Shown: one piece after another, positions 20,043-25,855 of the stretch
Layout of the letters: each line of letters begins with the position of its first letter
Numbering within the stretch: the first letter of the stretch is position 1
Source of the DNA: Leptolyngbya sp. SIO1E4
GTDB lineage: Bacteria > Cyanobacteriota > Cyanobacteriia > Phormidesmidales > Phormidesmidaceae
Direction: 5' to 3'
Assembly (NCBI GenBank): GCA_010672825.2
Contig: JAAHFU020000005.1
Coordinates: 310,001 to 374,000 of the forward strand
Length of the DNA stretch: 64,000 nucleotides
Program-made: the position numbers and the translations under genes
The notes under the pieces: model-generated
The model's input: only the letters and a program-made list of their open reading frames with translations
Told to the model about the DNA's origin: nothing
Databases searched by the model: none

Positions 20043-20254
20043 AGGCGAGTACTTCATCAGAGTGAGCGAGGCATCTCCCCCATAGGTTCTGCCTTGTCTA
20101 CAGCCTCATCTAAGCTAATCAAAAGCCCCAGGGGTTTTTCAGGTTAAATTGCTGATGAATTAGCATTGTCCAAGCGATCGCGGTTGTAACCGGTGACAGC
20201 ACTAACAGCAACCTCAAATCAATCAAATCGATAAGGTTAAACATGATGGTATTC

Positions 20255-20935
20255 TCAGGGATGTTCTGGCACTTGACCTAATTGATACTGTGCGATCGCT
20301 CGATTTCGCCGTGCATTTTGATAATTAGGATTGATAGCGAGGGCCTGTTCAAAAGAACGTAGCGACTCTTCATAACGCCTTAAGTTAAATAAAGCATCAC
20401 CTCGGTTGTCCCACGCTAAAGCTGCCCCTTGTATGCCCCAGTGCCTATTTTTTTCAAGGGCAAGTTCACAAGACACGAGAGCTTGGGCATATTCCCCTAA
20501 CTTACTCAACACGCCACATCGATTCGCCAACCCTAAAGAATAGTCTGGCTCAATGAATAATGCATGGTCGTAAGCGGTTAATGCCTCTGTATAGTGGTCT
20601 AAGCTAAATAGCTGATGTCCTAAATTGTTCCACGCTGCTGCACTCAATGGGTTAGTCATAACCGCACGATAAACGGTTTGAAATTCAACATGCTTAAAAA
20701 TGCTGAAGCTATCATGCATCTGCTTCATGGGCACAGCCGCTTGATCCGCCATCAACATGGCTTTAGATGACGCGAGTTCTGGTTTTGGCCAAGAGACAGC
20801 GACAACTTCTTGAGGTAAATCGCTCGGACTTGGTACATCAAAATTTTGATGATTGGAGGCGGAAGCAGGTTGGCTGAATAATAACCAAACTCCAGCCATA
20901 ATAGCCACAATCCAGAGTCTGATACTAAATTTCAT
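20255..20935 (-). CDS. Exported TPR protein
   Basis: 226 residues from the ATG at 20935, chosen because it directly gives a signal peptide (MKFSIRLWIVAIMAGVWLLF, cleavage near ASA-S). A GTG seven codons upstream is also open. About three tetratricopeptide repeats fill the second half (AAWNNLGHQLFSLDHYTEAL, LGLANRCGVLSKLGEYAQAL, AWDNRGDALFNLRRYEESL), a protein-interaction scaffold probably in the periplasm. Fifteen to forty bases after the stop of the gene at 20972-21565, so probably co-transcribed with it. Confidence 0.75.
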   Translation of the reverse strand: MKFSIRLWIVAIMAGVWLLFSQPASASNHQNFDVPSPSDLPQEVVAVSWPKPELASSKAMLMADQAAVPMKQMHDSFSIFKHVEFQTVYRAVMTNPLSAAAWNNLGHQLFSLDHYTEALTAYDHALFIEPDYSLGLANRCGVLSKLGEYAQALVSCELALEKNRHWGIQGAALAWDNRGDALFNLRRYEESLRSFEQALAINPNYQNARRNRAIAQYQLGQVPEHP

Positions 20936-20971
20936 GAGTTTCCCCGATAAGGTCACAGCAAATATCAGGCC

Positions 20972-21565
20972 TTATGGCCTCAGCGTAAATTTAATGGGCT
21001 GAATCTTTCTATACAGTTCATTGCCCATCACATCTTTATCAAATACGCTCAGCTTCCCAAATAATGAATCGAGCGTACTAAAGACAACTCTAGAATCTCG
21101 ATCCGAAATTTGGGATGAAACGCTACCTGCCTGACCAACACATGAACTGAAGTCAATAAATTCAGGTGCCCCTCCCTTTGAAACCACCAGCATCGGCTCA
21201 TTGCCTCCAGTCAAAGGCGCTTCTTCGAAACCGTTAATGTCATAGACCGCTTTGCCGCATAGGGTCGCCTCTGTATGCTCAACACCGGAATAGGGTGAAA
21301 CATACTTCATGGCAAATTCAGCCCCCTCAATTTCACTCAACAGAATAGGGGCCGTCACACCTTTCTGAGTAGATGTTTTGCGGATGGCTTTCTGCAATGC
21401 GGCATCACTAAAGGTAAGCTGACCCGTGAGCATACCATCTCGCCTGGCAATGCCTTCTGTCTTAAAAGAAAAGGTCGTTGCGAAGGCTGGAGAAACGCCT
21501 GAAATGATGCTAAAAAAGAGTGCGATCGCAACAATAAATGCCGATCTTAAACTTCGGACACACAT
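20972..21565 (-). CDS. Exported protein of unknown function
   Basis: 197 residues with a clear signal peptide (AFIVAIALFFSIISGVSPAFA, cleavage about residue 29). The mature part is predicted mostly beta and has two cysteines (TLCGKAVYD and SSCVGQ) that could form a disulfide. No family is recognised. Upstream partner of the TPR protein. Confidence 0.6.
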   Translation of the reverse strand: MCVRSLRSAFIVAIALFFSIISGVSPAFATTFSFKTEGIARRDGMLTGQLTFSDAALQKAIRKTSTQKGVTAPILLSEIEGAEFAMKYVSPYSGVEHTEATLCGKAVYDINGFEEAPLTGGNEPMLVVSKGGAPEFIDFSSCVGQAGSVSSQISDRDSRVVFSTLDSLFGKLSVFDKDVMGNELYRKIQPIKFTLRP

Positions 21566-21683
21566 ATCTCTTAAAGCCCCACAATCGTTGAATTAAACTT
21601 ATTCAGCTGGAATTAAATCTGTGCTGCCACGAGTGCGATGACGCGTTTCTGATGAGTTGTGTCAAATCATGATTTGAACAAGT

Positions 21684-21724
21684 ATAAAAAACGCTACAGA
21701 GCATAGGAGTCTATACTCTGTAGC
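21684..21724 (-). terminator. Rho-independent terminator of psbE-psbF
   Basis: On the minus strand GCTACAGAG and CTCTGTAGC form a 9-bp perfect stem, followed by GTTTTTTATAC. It sits 20 bp after the psbF-like stop, so the transcript ends without psbL or psbJ. Confidence 0.85.
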
Positions 21725-21742
21725 GCAAATCCTACCTTCGTT

Positions 21743-22036
21743 CTACTGGCCCAAAACTTTCCGAATTTCTTGAACAGTTGGCTTGCCGAAATTGATCACA
21801 TTCCAAGCAACAGAAATGATCAGCGGTAACAACACGAGCGATACACGAGAGTCAAGCCCTAAAAACTCAATGCGGATCGGCAATTGACCTTCTCGGGTAA
21901 TAAACTGCATGGCCCCGATCGCCCCTAAAAACCAAACTGTAGGAACGCCTAAAGCATGAATCGCTAACCAGCGGATTGTGTAAATGGGGTACTCGATTTC
22001 TGAACGAGCAGATTGATTGGTTAAATTGGTTGTCAT
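21743..22036 (-). CDS. psbF: Cytochrome b559 beta subunit (PsbF), C-terminally extended
   Basis: 97 residues. Residues 16-47 are unmistakably Psb[21 protein letters not shown] then [11 protein letters not shown], with the heme-ligating His ([10 protein letters not shown]) and the membrane helix. Normal PsbF is about 44 residues and stops just after MQFIQR. This protein goes on for about 50 residues with a second hydrophobic helix ([20 protein letters not shown]) and a charged tail ([12 protein letters not shown]). The start at 22036 is chosen by analogy with the family (MTTNLTNQ) and a GGAG about 12 bases upstream. Located 49 bp after psbE and followed by a terminator. The extension is not obviously PsbL or PsbJ. 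Confidence 0.85.
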
Positions 22037-22085
22037 CTTAATAAAAGGCTCCGAGTTATTGACTTGAGTGATGGTGCAATGGTGA

Positions 22086-22361
22086 TTAGTTGAGGGGCGG
22101 AGCAGTTTGTTCAAATTGCTGCAAATACTGATTAATTTCCTGTTTTGCCTGCATCCGCTCCGTCACGATAGGAATCTTGATCTGGTTAGAGGGGTAATAC
22201 TGATTGGGTCGAGGGGTGCCGAAGATGTCGTAGGCAAGCCCTGTGCTCACAAACAACCACCCAGATAAAAACACCGCCGGAAAATTTACCAGGTGCAACA
22301 GCCAAAACTGTGGATCGGTCACGATGTCTCCCAGGGGACGCTCGCCAGTTGTACCTGCCAT
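22086..22361 (-). CDS. psbE: Cytochrome b559 alpha subunit (PsbE), divergent
   Basis: 91 residues. The family N-terminus (MAGTTGERP) and [19 protein letters not shown] are intact, and the heme-ligating His is in [10 protein letters not shown]. The segment before the helix differs from normal PsbE: the usual SIRYWVIHS reads DPQFWLLHL, so the conserved Arg near the heme propionates is replaced by Gln. The tail is about 10 residues longer than usual. Together with the following PsbF it would bind one heme between two helices. Whether this is the only copy in the genome or a specialised second copy cannot be seen here; divergence and missing psbL-psbJ favour a second copy. Confidence 0.9.
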
Positions 22362-22830
22362 CTTCTTATCTCCTGAATAAATAACGTCTCGCTTTTAAGC
22401 TCTGCGTAGCGTTTTCTAAGCTCCTCACCGGCCATAGCCGTTGTACGGGCAAGGAACCGATACCCCGGCGTTTGCGATGACCTTAGCTTGGATTAGATGA
22501 GATAGATTGTCAATAAGATCGTTTGTTAATTTATGTTTATAGCCTTGTCAAACGCTGGCCCCAGGATTGCTGAAACCCTCTTATTACCAAGGAATTTCTG
22601 ATTGGGCAGCCATAGCTTTGCCCGATCGACGTTGAGTAAAGCTTCTTATTATTAGGAAAATATCTCAATTAAGATGAGAAGCTTGATTTTCCTAATCAAT
22701 CCTCATACCGTTTACCCTATCGATGGTTTTGCATGGGCCACTGAAAGTCCACTAGCCACCGATGCCGTCAATAGACGACCTCTGCAAATATCTCGTCACT
22801 CTTCCCTGACCGTAATTTCCGCTAATTGGC
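22362..22830. promoter_or_regulatory. Divergent promoter region psbE / ferric-siderophore permease
   Basis: No gene in this 470 bp. It separates divergent psbE (left) and the permease genes (right). It contains two interleaved inverted repeats and a Fur-like site, listed separately. Confidence 0.5.
22641..22696 (+). promoter_or_regulatory. Interleaved inverted repeats with Fur-box-like core
   Basis: ATTAGGAAAAT (22651-22661) and its exact complement ATTTTCCTAAT (22686-22696) are interleaved with GCTTCT (22641-22646) and AGAAGC (22677-22682), an a-b-a'-b' order that would allow a pseudoknot or two exclusive hairpins. The middle (22659-22680, AATATCTCAATTAAGATGAG) resembles the Fur-box palindromes upstream of the AraC genes, read on the other strand. 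Probably controls the permease genes. Confidence 0.5.
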
Positions 22831-23925
22831 TTGCTGGGAAACACCCCGCAGCTTACGATCAGTGAGAACATTTCTTATCAAGCAGGTGTGCTTACTGTGT
22901 CAGTTGGGACAACTCGGCAACAACCTATCCGCGCCAGAACCCCTCTCCTGGCAGGCGGAGTCTGCTTATGTGCGTTCCTTCTATTAGGATGCTTCATTGC
23001 CAGCATTGGGTTAGGCGTTGCCGACATCAGCCCCGGCCAAGTTCTGCAGGCGCTGACGGCTCCCGATGGCTCTACCGAACACCTGATCATTCGAACCGTT
23101 CGAACCCCCCGTTCGATTACGGCCCTCTTGGTGGGGGCAGCAGTGGCGGTGGCGGGGGCAATTATGCAAGGGTTAACGCGCAACCCCCTGGCTGATCCGG
23201 GCATTTTGGGCATCAATTCAGGGGCAGCCCTAGCTGTAGTGATGGCTGTGTTCTGGCTCAATGCAGCTTCCTTAACCGTTTACGCTGGGTTTGCCCTGAT
23301 CGGAGCCGCGATCGCTGCGATCGCAGTGTACGGACTCGGCTCACTGGGGCGAGGGGGCCTGACGCCCCTGAATCTGACCATTGCCGGAGCCGCACTGACC
23401 GCTCTCGTGTCGTCCCTAACGACAGGTATTCTCATTCTGAGCCAGCGCACCCTGGAAGAGATTCGCTTTTGGCTAGCAGGGTCTGTCGCCGGGCGCGACA
23501 TAGAGCTGGTGATACAGGTGATGCCCTACCTGGCAGTGGGCCTAATCCTGGGATTGTTAATGGGCAAACAGCTGACCACCCTGAGCCTGGGAGAGTCTGT
23601 AGCTCAGGGGCTGGGTCAAAAAACCGGCTGGGTTAAAGGGGTTGCCGCAGTCAGCGTAGTGTTATTAGCAGGAGGGTCAGTGGCGATCGCAGGCCCAATC
23701 GGGTTCATCGGGCTGATTGTGCCCCACATCGTGCGTTTCTGGGCCGGGGCCGACTACCGCTGGATTTTGCCCTACTCAGCCCTGGTCGGAGCCATTTTGC
23801 TACTGCTAGCCGACATCGGCGCCCGACTCATCATTCAACCCCAAGAACTCCCCGTAGGCATCGTCATGCCACTGCTAGGGGCACCGTTTTTTATCTACCT
23901 CACACGTTCCCGAGTGAGACGGTAA
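22831..23925 (+). CDS. FecCD-type iron-siderophore ABC permease, subunit 1
   Basis: Up to 364 residues. A FecCD/BtuC-type integral membrane permease with about nine or ten hydrophobic helices. Diagnostic motifs: [20 protein letters not shown] followed by [16 protein letters not shown], and later [20 protein letters not shown], the cytoplasmic coupling region contacting the ATPase. It imports ferric siderophore handed over by FecB-like lipoproteins. The start is uncertain: no ATG fits; TTG 22831, GTG 22888 and GTG 22897 (AGCAGG about 10 bases before) are possible, and the longest is given. Its partner permease follows after a 155-bp repeat-filled gap, and the ATPase lies 2.1 kb downstream at 26,032. 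Confidence 0.93.
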
Positions 23926-25420: not shown

Positions 25421-25855
25421 ATGCGAGACCTTGACACCCAAACGACTATCGAGCTGCTGAACCAAATTATGGAGTTTGAGCTAGCAGGCGTCGTGCGTTA
25501 CACCCACTACTCCCTCATGGCAACCGGCCCCAATCGCATTCCTATTGTGGATTTCTTTAAAGCCCAAGCCAATGAGTCTTTGCTCCACGCGCAAGAAGCA
25601 GGTGAGATCCTGACCGGGTTAGAAGGTCATCCAAGTCAGCGCATTGCCACCATTGAAGAGACTCATCGACACTCAATACAGGATCTGCTGCAAGAAAGCC
25701 TCAACCATGAGCAAAAAGCGTTAAGCATGTACAAAAAACTGCTGGACATCGTAGAAGACGCCAGCATTTATCTAGAAGAATATACCCGCACCAAGATTGG
25801 GCAAGAAGAACTGCACAATCTCGAAATCAAGAAAATGCTGCGGGACTATAGCTGA
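25421..25855 (+). CDS. Bacterioferritin-like ferritin-family protein
   Basis: 144 residues in a four-helix ferritin-like fold: LLNQIMEFELAGVVRYTHYS, NESLLHAQEAGEILTGLEGH, LLQESLNHEQKALSMYKKLL, GQEELHNLEIKKMLRDYS. Carboxylate and His residues suited to a di-iron site are visible (Glu18/Glu20, Glu52 with His56, Glu97, Glu129 with His132). The Glu52-His56 spacing is one longer than the usual E-x-x-H, so the site may differ from classical bacterioferritin. It probably stores or oxidises iron. Its position between the permease and ATPase genes of the siderophore importer ties storage to uptake. Confidence 0.85.
   Translation: MRDLDTQTTIELLNQIMEFELAGVVRYTHYSLMATGPNRIPIVDFFKAQANESLLHAQEAGEILTGLEGHPSQRIATIEETHRHSIQDLLQESLNHEQKALSMYKKLLDIVEDASIYLEEYTRTKIGQEELHNLEIKKMLRDYS

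Follow-up and report, generated by a model that had tools for sequence, protein, structure and literature searches.

The alpha (PsbE) and beta (PsbF) subunits of photosystem II (PSII) form cytochrome b559, whose role has long been debated, as has the reason why its heme occurs in high-, intermediate- and low-potential forms. PMC12661325 states that no consensus exists about a redox function. Arg8 and Arg18 of the alpha subunit and beta-Arg19 contact the heme propionates, the R18S-alpha and F32Y-beta mutants of Thermosynechococcus pass from the high-potential to the intermediate form, and a tobacco F26S-beta mutant shows the low form (PMC4709441). In Arabidopsis PsbY is needed for the high-potential (HP) form (PMC9214863).

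Additional or unusual genes of this type have been described. One operon of Synechococcus 7335 unites a psbF2 with psbO1, psbV and a paralogue of nblA (PMC8689208). NCBIfam includes a "cytochrome b559 subunit beta, long form" (NF002717 and NF002720). Part of the system considered here is already in print: a psbE2 is known from Acaryochloris marina and a PsbF-PsbY fusion was deposited as chain F of the structure 7YMI. What appears to be new is this fusion, PsbFY, as a family; we found no account of the family, of its heme-pocket changes or of its link with iron in the open-access literature. The window, a stretch of 64,000 nucleotides from the 8.2 Mb genome of Leptolyngbya sp. SIO1E4, includes one such gene together with a divergent psbE, psbE2 (Table 1). 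The pair provides a natural variant of cytochrome b559 in which two potential-controlling residues are changed and PsbY is tethered to the beta subunit.

An additional gene pair with a PsbF-PsbY fusion

Both proteins are recognized by the profiles of their families. PsbE2 passes the cut-offs of TIGR01332 (NCBIfam; 112.1 bits, cut-off 93.95) and PF00284 (Pfam; 65 bits), and PsbFY that of TIGR01333 (NCBIfam; 75.4 bits, cut-off 61.15), with PF00283 (Pfam) placed on its residues 14–38. The best start for psbFY is the ATG at 22036, as in its relatives, 49 nt downstream of psbE2; a TTG at 22114 proposed by the ORF lister is unsupported by them. No psbL or psbJ follows psbFY in the window, so that the unit is not a psbEFLJ operon, and a terminator is found instead (z -5.7 for the fold of 21681–21745). 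These genes are not a chance occurrence, since the profile cut-offs are passed, homologous pairs are present at 14 loci and dN/dS is low. The original prediction, which included a psbE without the Arg beside the heme His and a PsbF extended by about 50 residues and a second helix, with a terminator in place of psbL-psbJ, was borne out, its coordinates included: the motif is DPQFWLLH in PsbE2 and SVRYWIIH in the ordinary PsbE of the same genome, and PsbFY has 49 residues, including a second hydrophobic helix, beyond the usual C-terminal Arg48.

Table 1. Positions of the features discussed (window coordinates unless a locus is named)
Feature	Position	Strand	Evidence or remark
41-aa PsbY-like ORF	20119..20244	-	22.7 bits with PF06298 (cut-off 24 not reached); PsbY by hhalign, 94.5%
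TPR protein, signal-peptide-like start (by eye)	20255..20956	-	PF00515 75 bits
X, 197-aa protein, signal-peptide-like start (by eye)	20972..21565	-	family without Pfam (cut-off) or NCBIfam match
Intrinsic terminator directly 3' of psbFY	21726-21691	-	hairpin with 16-bp stem and run of U
psbFY, cytochrome b559 beta (residues 1-48) and PsbY (residues ~61-96), 97 aa	21743..22036	-	TIGR01333, PF06298, homologues
psbE2, divergent cytochrome b559 alpha subunit, 91 aa	22086..22361	-	TIGR01332, PF00284, alignment and column comparison
Candidate Fur-type 7-1-7 inverted repeat TGACAATCTATCTCA, overlapping TTGACA	22498..22512	.	137-151 nt upstream of psbE2
Siderophore permease (FecCD), with which the divergent iron-uptake island begins (island extends to about 50 kb)	22831..23925	+	PF01032 320 bits
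Ferritin-like protein	25421..25855	+	PF00210 61 bits
CP43-family antenna genes by X and TPR	L051 2685-3788, L105 2372-3475, L106 3930-5033, L107 4500-5603

The pair constitutes an additional set of cytochrome b559 genes and not a replacement, since the same genome also carries a normal psbEFLJ operon (contig C3, downstream of a gene identified by eye as ycf48-like) and a separate psbY (contig C1). It had been proposed that this is a second, specialised cytochrome b559 and that the genome be searched for a standard psbEFLJ; finding one supports the proposal and leads us to reject the opposite possibility, that psbE2-psbFY is the sole psbEF and the long form the ordinary one. Among the 12 genomes carrying the fusion, ordinary psbE and separate psbY are each present in 10, those without one or the other being drafts with a completeness of 87–93%, and at least one further PsbF match occurs in 11.

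The window's genome has a further psbF of 44 aa on C1 (C1:216973; L053 8941–9075) beside psbO and psbV. Synechococcus 7335 psbF2, likewise a second psbF, includes no fusion, has no psbE partner and is a paralogue distinct from psbFY. The C1 gene lies near a second CP43/CP47 pair (C1:225508–228558) in a FaRLiP-like region, other genes of which were identified by eye, and this region resembles the setting of psbF2 as described in PMC8689208.

The C-terminal helix of the long PsbF was identified from sequence comparisons as PsbY, making the 97-aa protein a PsbF-PsbY fusion. The second helix had indeed been suggested for comparison with known PSII small subunits, although PsbY had not been named. 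In the window PF06298 (PsbY, Pfam) matches residues 61–94 with 25.0 bits, barely above the cut-off of 24, and the NCBIfam PsbY profile gives 25.6 bits, below its cut-off of 48. This score being thin alone, the whole fusion family was tested. PF06298 matched all 13 complete members at E<=1 while profiles of the other small PSII subunits matched none of the 13, and hhalign aligned the profile of the PsbFY C-terminus with that of nine separate PsbY over 35 columns (96.5%, E 8e-10). In a genome scan with the Pfam PsbY profile, 4 of the 12 fusions scored above the cut-off, 4 below, and 4, one of them truncated, were unlisted. PsbY and the PsbFY helix have in common a hydrophobic helix with conserved Pro and Trp, mostly after D-x-R, but PsbY is free whereas its equivalent in PsbFY is tethered to the PsbF C-terminus via about 13 residues. 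An AlphaFold model of PsbFY, although weak (pLDDT 67, pTM 0.32), has two helices (18–46 and 63–96); searches with it returned 3 Foldseek matches and 12 VIA-align rows with no PSII chain, a result of little weight.

PsbFY was also considered as an ordinary NCBIfam long-form PsbF and this was rejected: it scores 51 and 48 bits against NF002717 and NF002720, whose cut-offs are 153 and 127. The lengths are similar (97–98 profile positions), but in these profiles PsbF is at the C-terminal end, i.e. with an N-terminal extension, unlike PsbFY.

Heme-pocket divergence, distribution and descent

The divergence of PsbE2 is concentrated around the heme. Comparison of the 14 PsbE2 with 25 ordinary PsbE over 82 shared columns gave 8 in which the two groups are fully disjoint (17, 18, 19, 22, 24, 26, 30 and 33). 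All are within 10 residues of the heme ligand His23 (hypergeometric 7e-7 for columns drawn at random), and there was none in columns 34–82, which include the lumenal part; columns 86–87 were excluded, as they were flagged only because ordinary PsbE ends before them. In this first comparison rows were called "ordinary" on the basis of a motif with Arg18, and a pattern requiring that residue had been used to gather 12 of the 25. Because such labelling is circular, the comparison was repeated with all PsbE cores of the collected loci, found without constraint on residues 10–40 and grouped solely by linkage to a long PsbF. The same 8 columns were recovered within residues 5–44 (13 linked and 19 unlinked distinct cores), and Arg18 was present in 19 of 19 unlinked but in none of the 13 linked cores, which represent the 14 loci. 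PsbE2 is thus a variant and not a standard PsbE. PsbE2 of the window keeps His23 and the propionate ligand Arg8 and has lost Arg18; the two former residues are kept at all 14 loci, as are the heme His and the propionate Arg of the beta subunit in PsbFY.

In PsbF, 2 of 34 columns are disjoint between 14 fusions and 20 ordinary cores: Phe is replaced by Tyr at His-8 and by Trp at His+8. The search pattern used for PsbF fixes many positions, so that only free ones, including both of these, could differ. With Thermosynechococcus numbering, taken from its chains, the changed sites include alpha-Arg18 and beta-Phe32, the latter being Trp in all 14 fusions. Phe26 of the tobacco beta subunit is presumably the same residue as beta-Phe32. 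PsbE2/PsbFY therefore shares with PSII cytochrome b559 both His ligands, alpha-Arg8, the beta-Arg (R22 in the window) and the lumenal PsbE segment, but differs in the loss of alpha-Arg18, the replacement of beta-Phe32 by Trp, the beta subunit fused to PsbY and the organization in a unit without psbL and psbJ. Judged from these alignments, the variant is altered where heme potential is set and otherwise alike, given that the disjoint columns include alpha-Arg18 and beta-Phe32, sites at which mutants change the potential.

Of the 388 genomes of the class, 12 contained relatives when searched with a profile built from six fusions; the lowest-scoring member reached 108.7 bits and the next match, at 74.5 bits, was an ordinary PsbF with a stop. 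Together with two loci from a named collection this provides 14 loci with homologous pairs; a search for PsbF proteins of 90–100 residues had been suggested at the outset. Four families are represented: that of the window (4 of 63 genomes, each from another genus), f19 (two genomes), f4 (one genome) and that of G222, in whose genus 5 of 7 genomes carry the pair. G222 is Acaryochloris, as judged by identity to the chains of 7YMI, an entry that a figure legend in PMC12661325 attributes to A. marina. At all 14 loci psbE2 is directly upstream of psbFY, with gaps of 6–408 nt.

In an unrooted tree the 14 rows of PsbE2 form a group apart from the 25 of ordinary PsbE (support 100/99). Of 22 comparisons 18 were computable; in these dN/dS lies between 0.02 and 0.13, with dS above 1 in many, and on this measure psbE2-psbFY is under purifying selection. 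A decaying paralogue with no present role would agree with the near absence of transcript in A. marina (see below) and with the truncation of one copy, but it has very little likelihood in view of these dN/dS values and of the 13 of 14 psbFY copies that are full length. A distribution as patchy as this suggests either transfer or repeated loss. A tblastn search of phage and plasmid collections gave no match, and hence no sign of carriage by the elements they contain.

Two of the loci have particular features. In Leptolyngbya sp. Heron Island J (L012/L046 9–1719) psbFY is truncated at about residue 73 and adjoins a gene which, by eye, is transposase-like. L010 is on a contig titled Candidatus Gracilibacteria SU_1_2 which is probably misbinned since it carries cyanobacterial psb genes.

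Iron neighbourhood, expression and proposed role

As the original prediction had noted, the pair is next to an iron-uptake island, with siderophore-uptake genes on the opposite strand. Pfam matches confirm in this island the FecCD permease, the ferritin-like protein, an ABC ATPase, an AraC regulator, a TonB receptor and a periplasmic binding protein, further copies being recognized by eye; the AraC, TonB receptor and binding-protein genes are present as several near-copies. The ferritin-like protein is 80.6% identical (blastp) to one encoded beside psbE2 in a genome of the Acaryochloris genus (L049 7600–8034). A Fur-family gene lies beside the pair at all five loci of that genus (two of the five checked by profile) and a Peripla_BP_2 protein is encoded near it in L009. 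In total, Fur or iron-transport genes adjoin 7 of the 14 loci. Only an AraC regulator is found near the pair in L008 and L043, and no Fur or iron-transport gene was seen by eye in the five others (L010, L044, L045, L046 and L048), flank lengths being different between loci.

This neighbourhood could be that of a b-type cytochrome of iron uptake outside PSII, a membrane dimer of PsbE2 and PsbFY from which ferric siderophores or a carrier would receive electrons. Consistent with this are the divergent orientation of the pair and the siderophore permease operon in the window, the Peripla_BP_2 protein of L009 and the AraC regulators of L008 and L043. We consider it quite unlikely, however, as the PF00284-bearing lumenal half has no fully diverged column, PsbY, which would be needless in a free cytochrome, is retained, and inspection by eye of the ORFs at the five loci from the Acaryochloris genus revealed no siderophore transporter. 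An altered pocket combined with a lumenal half without diverged column and with PsbY kept favours a role in PSII, as far as can be judged from such comparisons.

Upstream of psbE2 is a potential Fur binding site, TGACAATCTATCTCA, which has 2 mismatches at the 12 specified positions of a 7-1-7 Fur consensus that was chosen after reading the upstream regions (shuffle p 0.02 for the window locus). Measured in the same way, the best sites upstream of the 14 psbE2 have a mean of 2.14 mismatches (range 1–4), compared to 3.9 in shuffles of these regions (0 of 200 as good) and 4.0 upstream of 13 ordinary psbE (range 3–5; p 1e-4 vs psbE2). An origin in A+T-rich background alone was considered, but neither control shows the signal. 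The best matches have 4 mismatches in L044 and L048, which amounts to no site, and 3 in L009 and L045, where the signal is weak; a promoter scan gave no sigma-70 match. The iron setting that had been predicted and a Fur-like site are both backed by the comparison between loci, but they do not extend to every locus and the Fur-like sites are candidates. Five sites with one mismatch occur in the window: three (28884, 34577 and 39517) are located before or at the start of the repeated AraC-type genes, and the remaining two are at 2386 and 63733.

Expression data are available for A. marina. RNA-seq values in control, microoxic and hyperoxic cells are 47, 21 and 33 for AM1_1130, a psbE paralogue, 20, 20 and 20 for the psbF AM1_1129, and 34,459, 11,070 and 17,313 for ordinary psbE (PMC5295598). 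From their adjacency and naming we infer that AM1_1130 and AM1_1129 are psbE2 and psbFY. Their near silence in standard medium fits repression. A review reports an increase of A. marina psbE2 in far-red light (PMC5438491); this points to another signal, either instead of iron or besides it.

This last observation, the use of chlorophyll d by Acaryochloris and the FaRLiP-like CP43/CP47 pair in the window's genome could indicate a far-red or low-oxygen variant of PSII, similar to FaRLiP or psbA1-type paralogues. Such a variant is very unlikely: a second full-length CP47-type match (PF00421), a mark of FaRLiP, was found in 2 of the 12 holders (G000 and G082; several others are drafts), the FaRLiP-like cluster and psbE2 are on different contigs (C1 and C5), and A. 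marina psbE2 does not rise in microoxic or hyperoxic cells in the values cited above.

We favour, with a probability of roughly 55%, an interpretation in which psbE2-psbFY encodes an alternative cytochrome b559 that is induced by stress, probably under the control of iron, and substitutes for the ordinary one in PSII, with a lowered heme potential and PsbY attached. The course that we infer from the sequences would be the following. With ample iron, a Fur-family repressor would silence the genes; when iron becomes limiting, with the redox stress that this brings, they would be expressed and their products would replace PsbE and PsbF in PSII. Loss of alpha-Arg18 and the change of beta-Phe32 to Trp would shift the heme from the high-potential form down to an intermediate or low one. 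After the lumenal loop the fused PsbY helix would lead back to the cytoplasmic side, and the normally loose PsbY would thereby be held one-to-one with the cytochrome. The secondary electron pathway of such a PSII would be altered, which would offer photoprotection when downstream electron flow is limited. The lowered potential is read from single mutants of another species and could be compensated; moreover, since PsbY favours the high form, its tethering might have the opposite effect.

PsbE2/PsbFY might alternatively mark PSII intermediates or a holding complex during assembly or repair and later be exchanged for PsbE/PsbF. A distorted or low-potential heme has been reported for inactive and intermediate PSII (PMC9214863), the unit is without psbL and psbJ, and the products of two neighbouring genes, TPR and X (see below), could be lumenal factors. 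We regard this as unlikely: a step of general importance in assembly would hardly be confined to a scattered 12 of 388 genomes or be nearly silent in standard culture.

The replacement cytochrome that we favour may tie cytochrome b559 to iron status. The variant is conserved in named strains (Acaryochloris marina and Oscillatoria CS-180), in which potential, PsbY stoichiometry and photoprotection are testable together.

The A. marina structure and the associated genes

Chain F of the PDB entries 7YMI and 7YMM is a full-length PsbFY of 99 aa that differs from the L051 copy by two residues, and it is named "Photosystem II protein Y". It was deposited with ordinary PsbE: chain E of 7YMI matches that of G222, and not PsbE2, over all 82 residues given. 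When the ordinary 44-aa PsbF and the separate PsbY of G222 were compared to the PDB, no 7YMI chain other than chain F was among the matches. There are two possibilities: A. marina PSII incorporates PsbFY together with its ordinary PsbE, or the depositors relied on the one psbF that was annotated. The main text of the RNA-seq study mentions psbF once, as AM1_1129 (PMC5295598), with a transcript at the floor, and this favours the second possibility. The ordinary 44-aa psbF seems to be unannotated in the A. marina genome and chain F may therefore have been assigned to the wrong paralogue.

Three further genes follow psbFY in the window (Table 1). X, whose family is represented in the window, L043, L046, L048, L051 and L098–L103 and has two invariant Cys in six aligned members, occurs in 10 of the 388 class genomes. 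Eight of these are among the 12 with psbFY (Fisher p 2e-12, uncorrected for relatedness), which leaves four psbFY genomes without X (G362, G075, G086 and G235) and two genomes with X but without psbFY. No PDB sequence matched X below E 0.9, and a poor model (pLDDT 58) retrieved nothing with Foldseek at E<=0.001. On sequence criteria X is a newly recognised, putatively secreted family that co-occurs with psbFY. The TPR gene adjoins X at all 11 X loci examined, and both are near psbE2-psbFY in the window, L010, L043, L046, L048 and L051. Relatives of the 41-aa PsbY-like ORF were detected at 5 of the 14 loci, including the window. In the Acaryochloris genus X and TPR are beside a gene for a 367-aa CP43-family (IsiA/Pcb-type) antenna protein at four of four loci scanned, and at a fifth (L108) by genome scan.

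These associations would be compatible with an iron-stress kit, shared by several lineages, that rebuilds the edge of PSII with a cytochrome b559 of permanently lowered heme potential carrying PsbY, a second PsbY-like peptide and the exported X and TPR proteins, beside IsiA/Pcb-type genes in Acaryochloris. Such a kit would switch cytochrome b559 chemistry genetically and not by damage; we put this forward tentatively, as a possibility short of even odds.

Other genes were noted at some loci. A nickel superoxide dismutase gene and a HupE/UreJ gene are near psbE2-psbFY in L047, L050 and L052 (identified by profiles in L050 and by blastp in the others), and in G308, which is without psbFY, a heme oxygenase gene lies beside TPR-X (L104 2187–3014).
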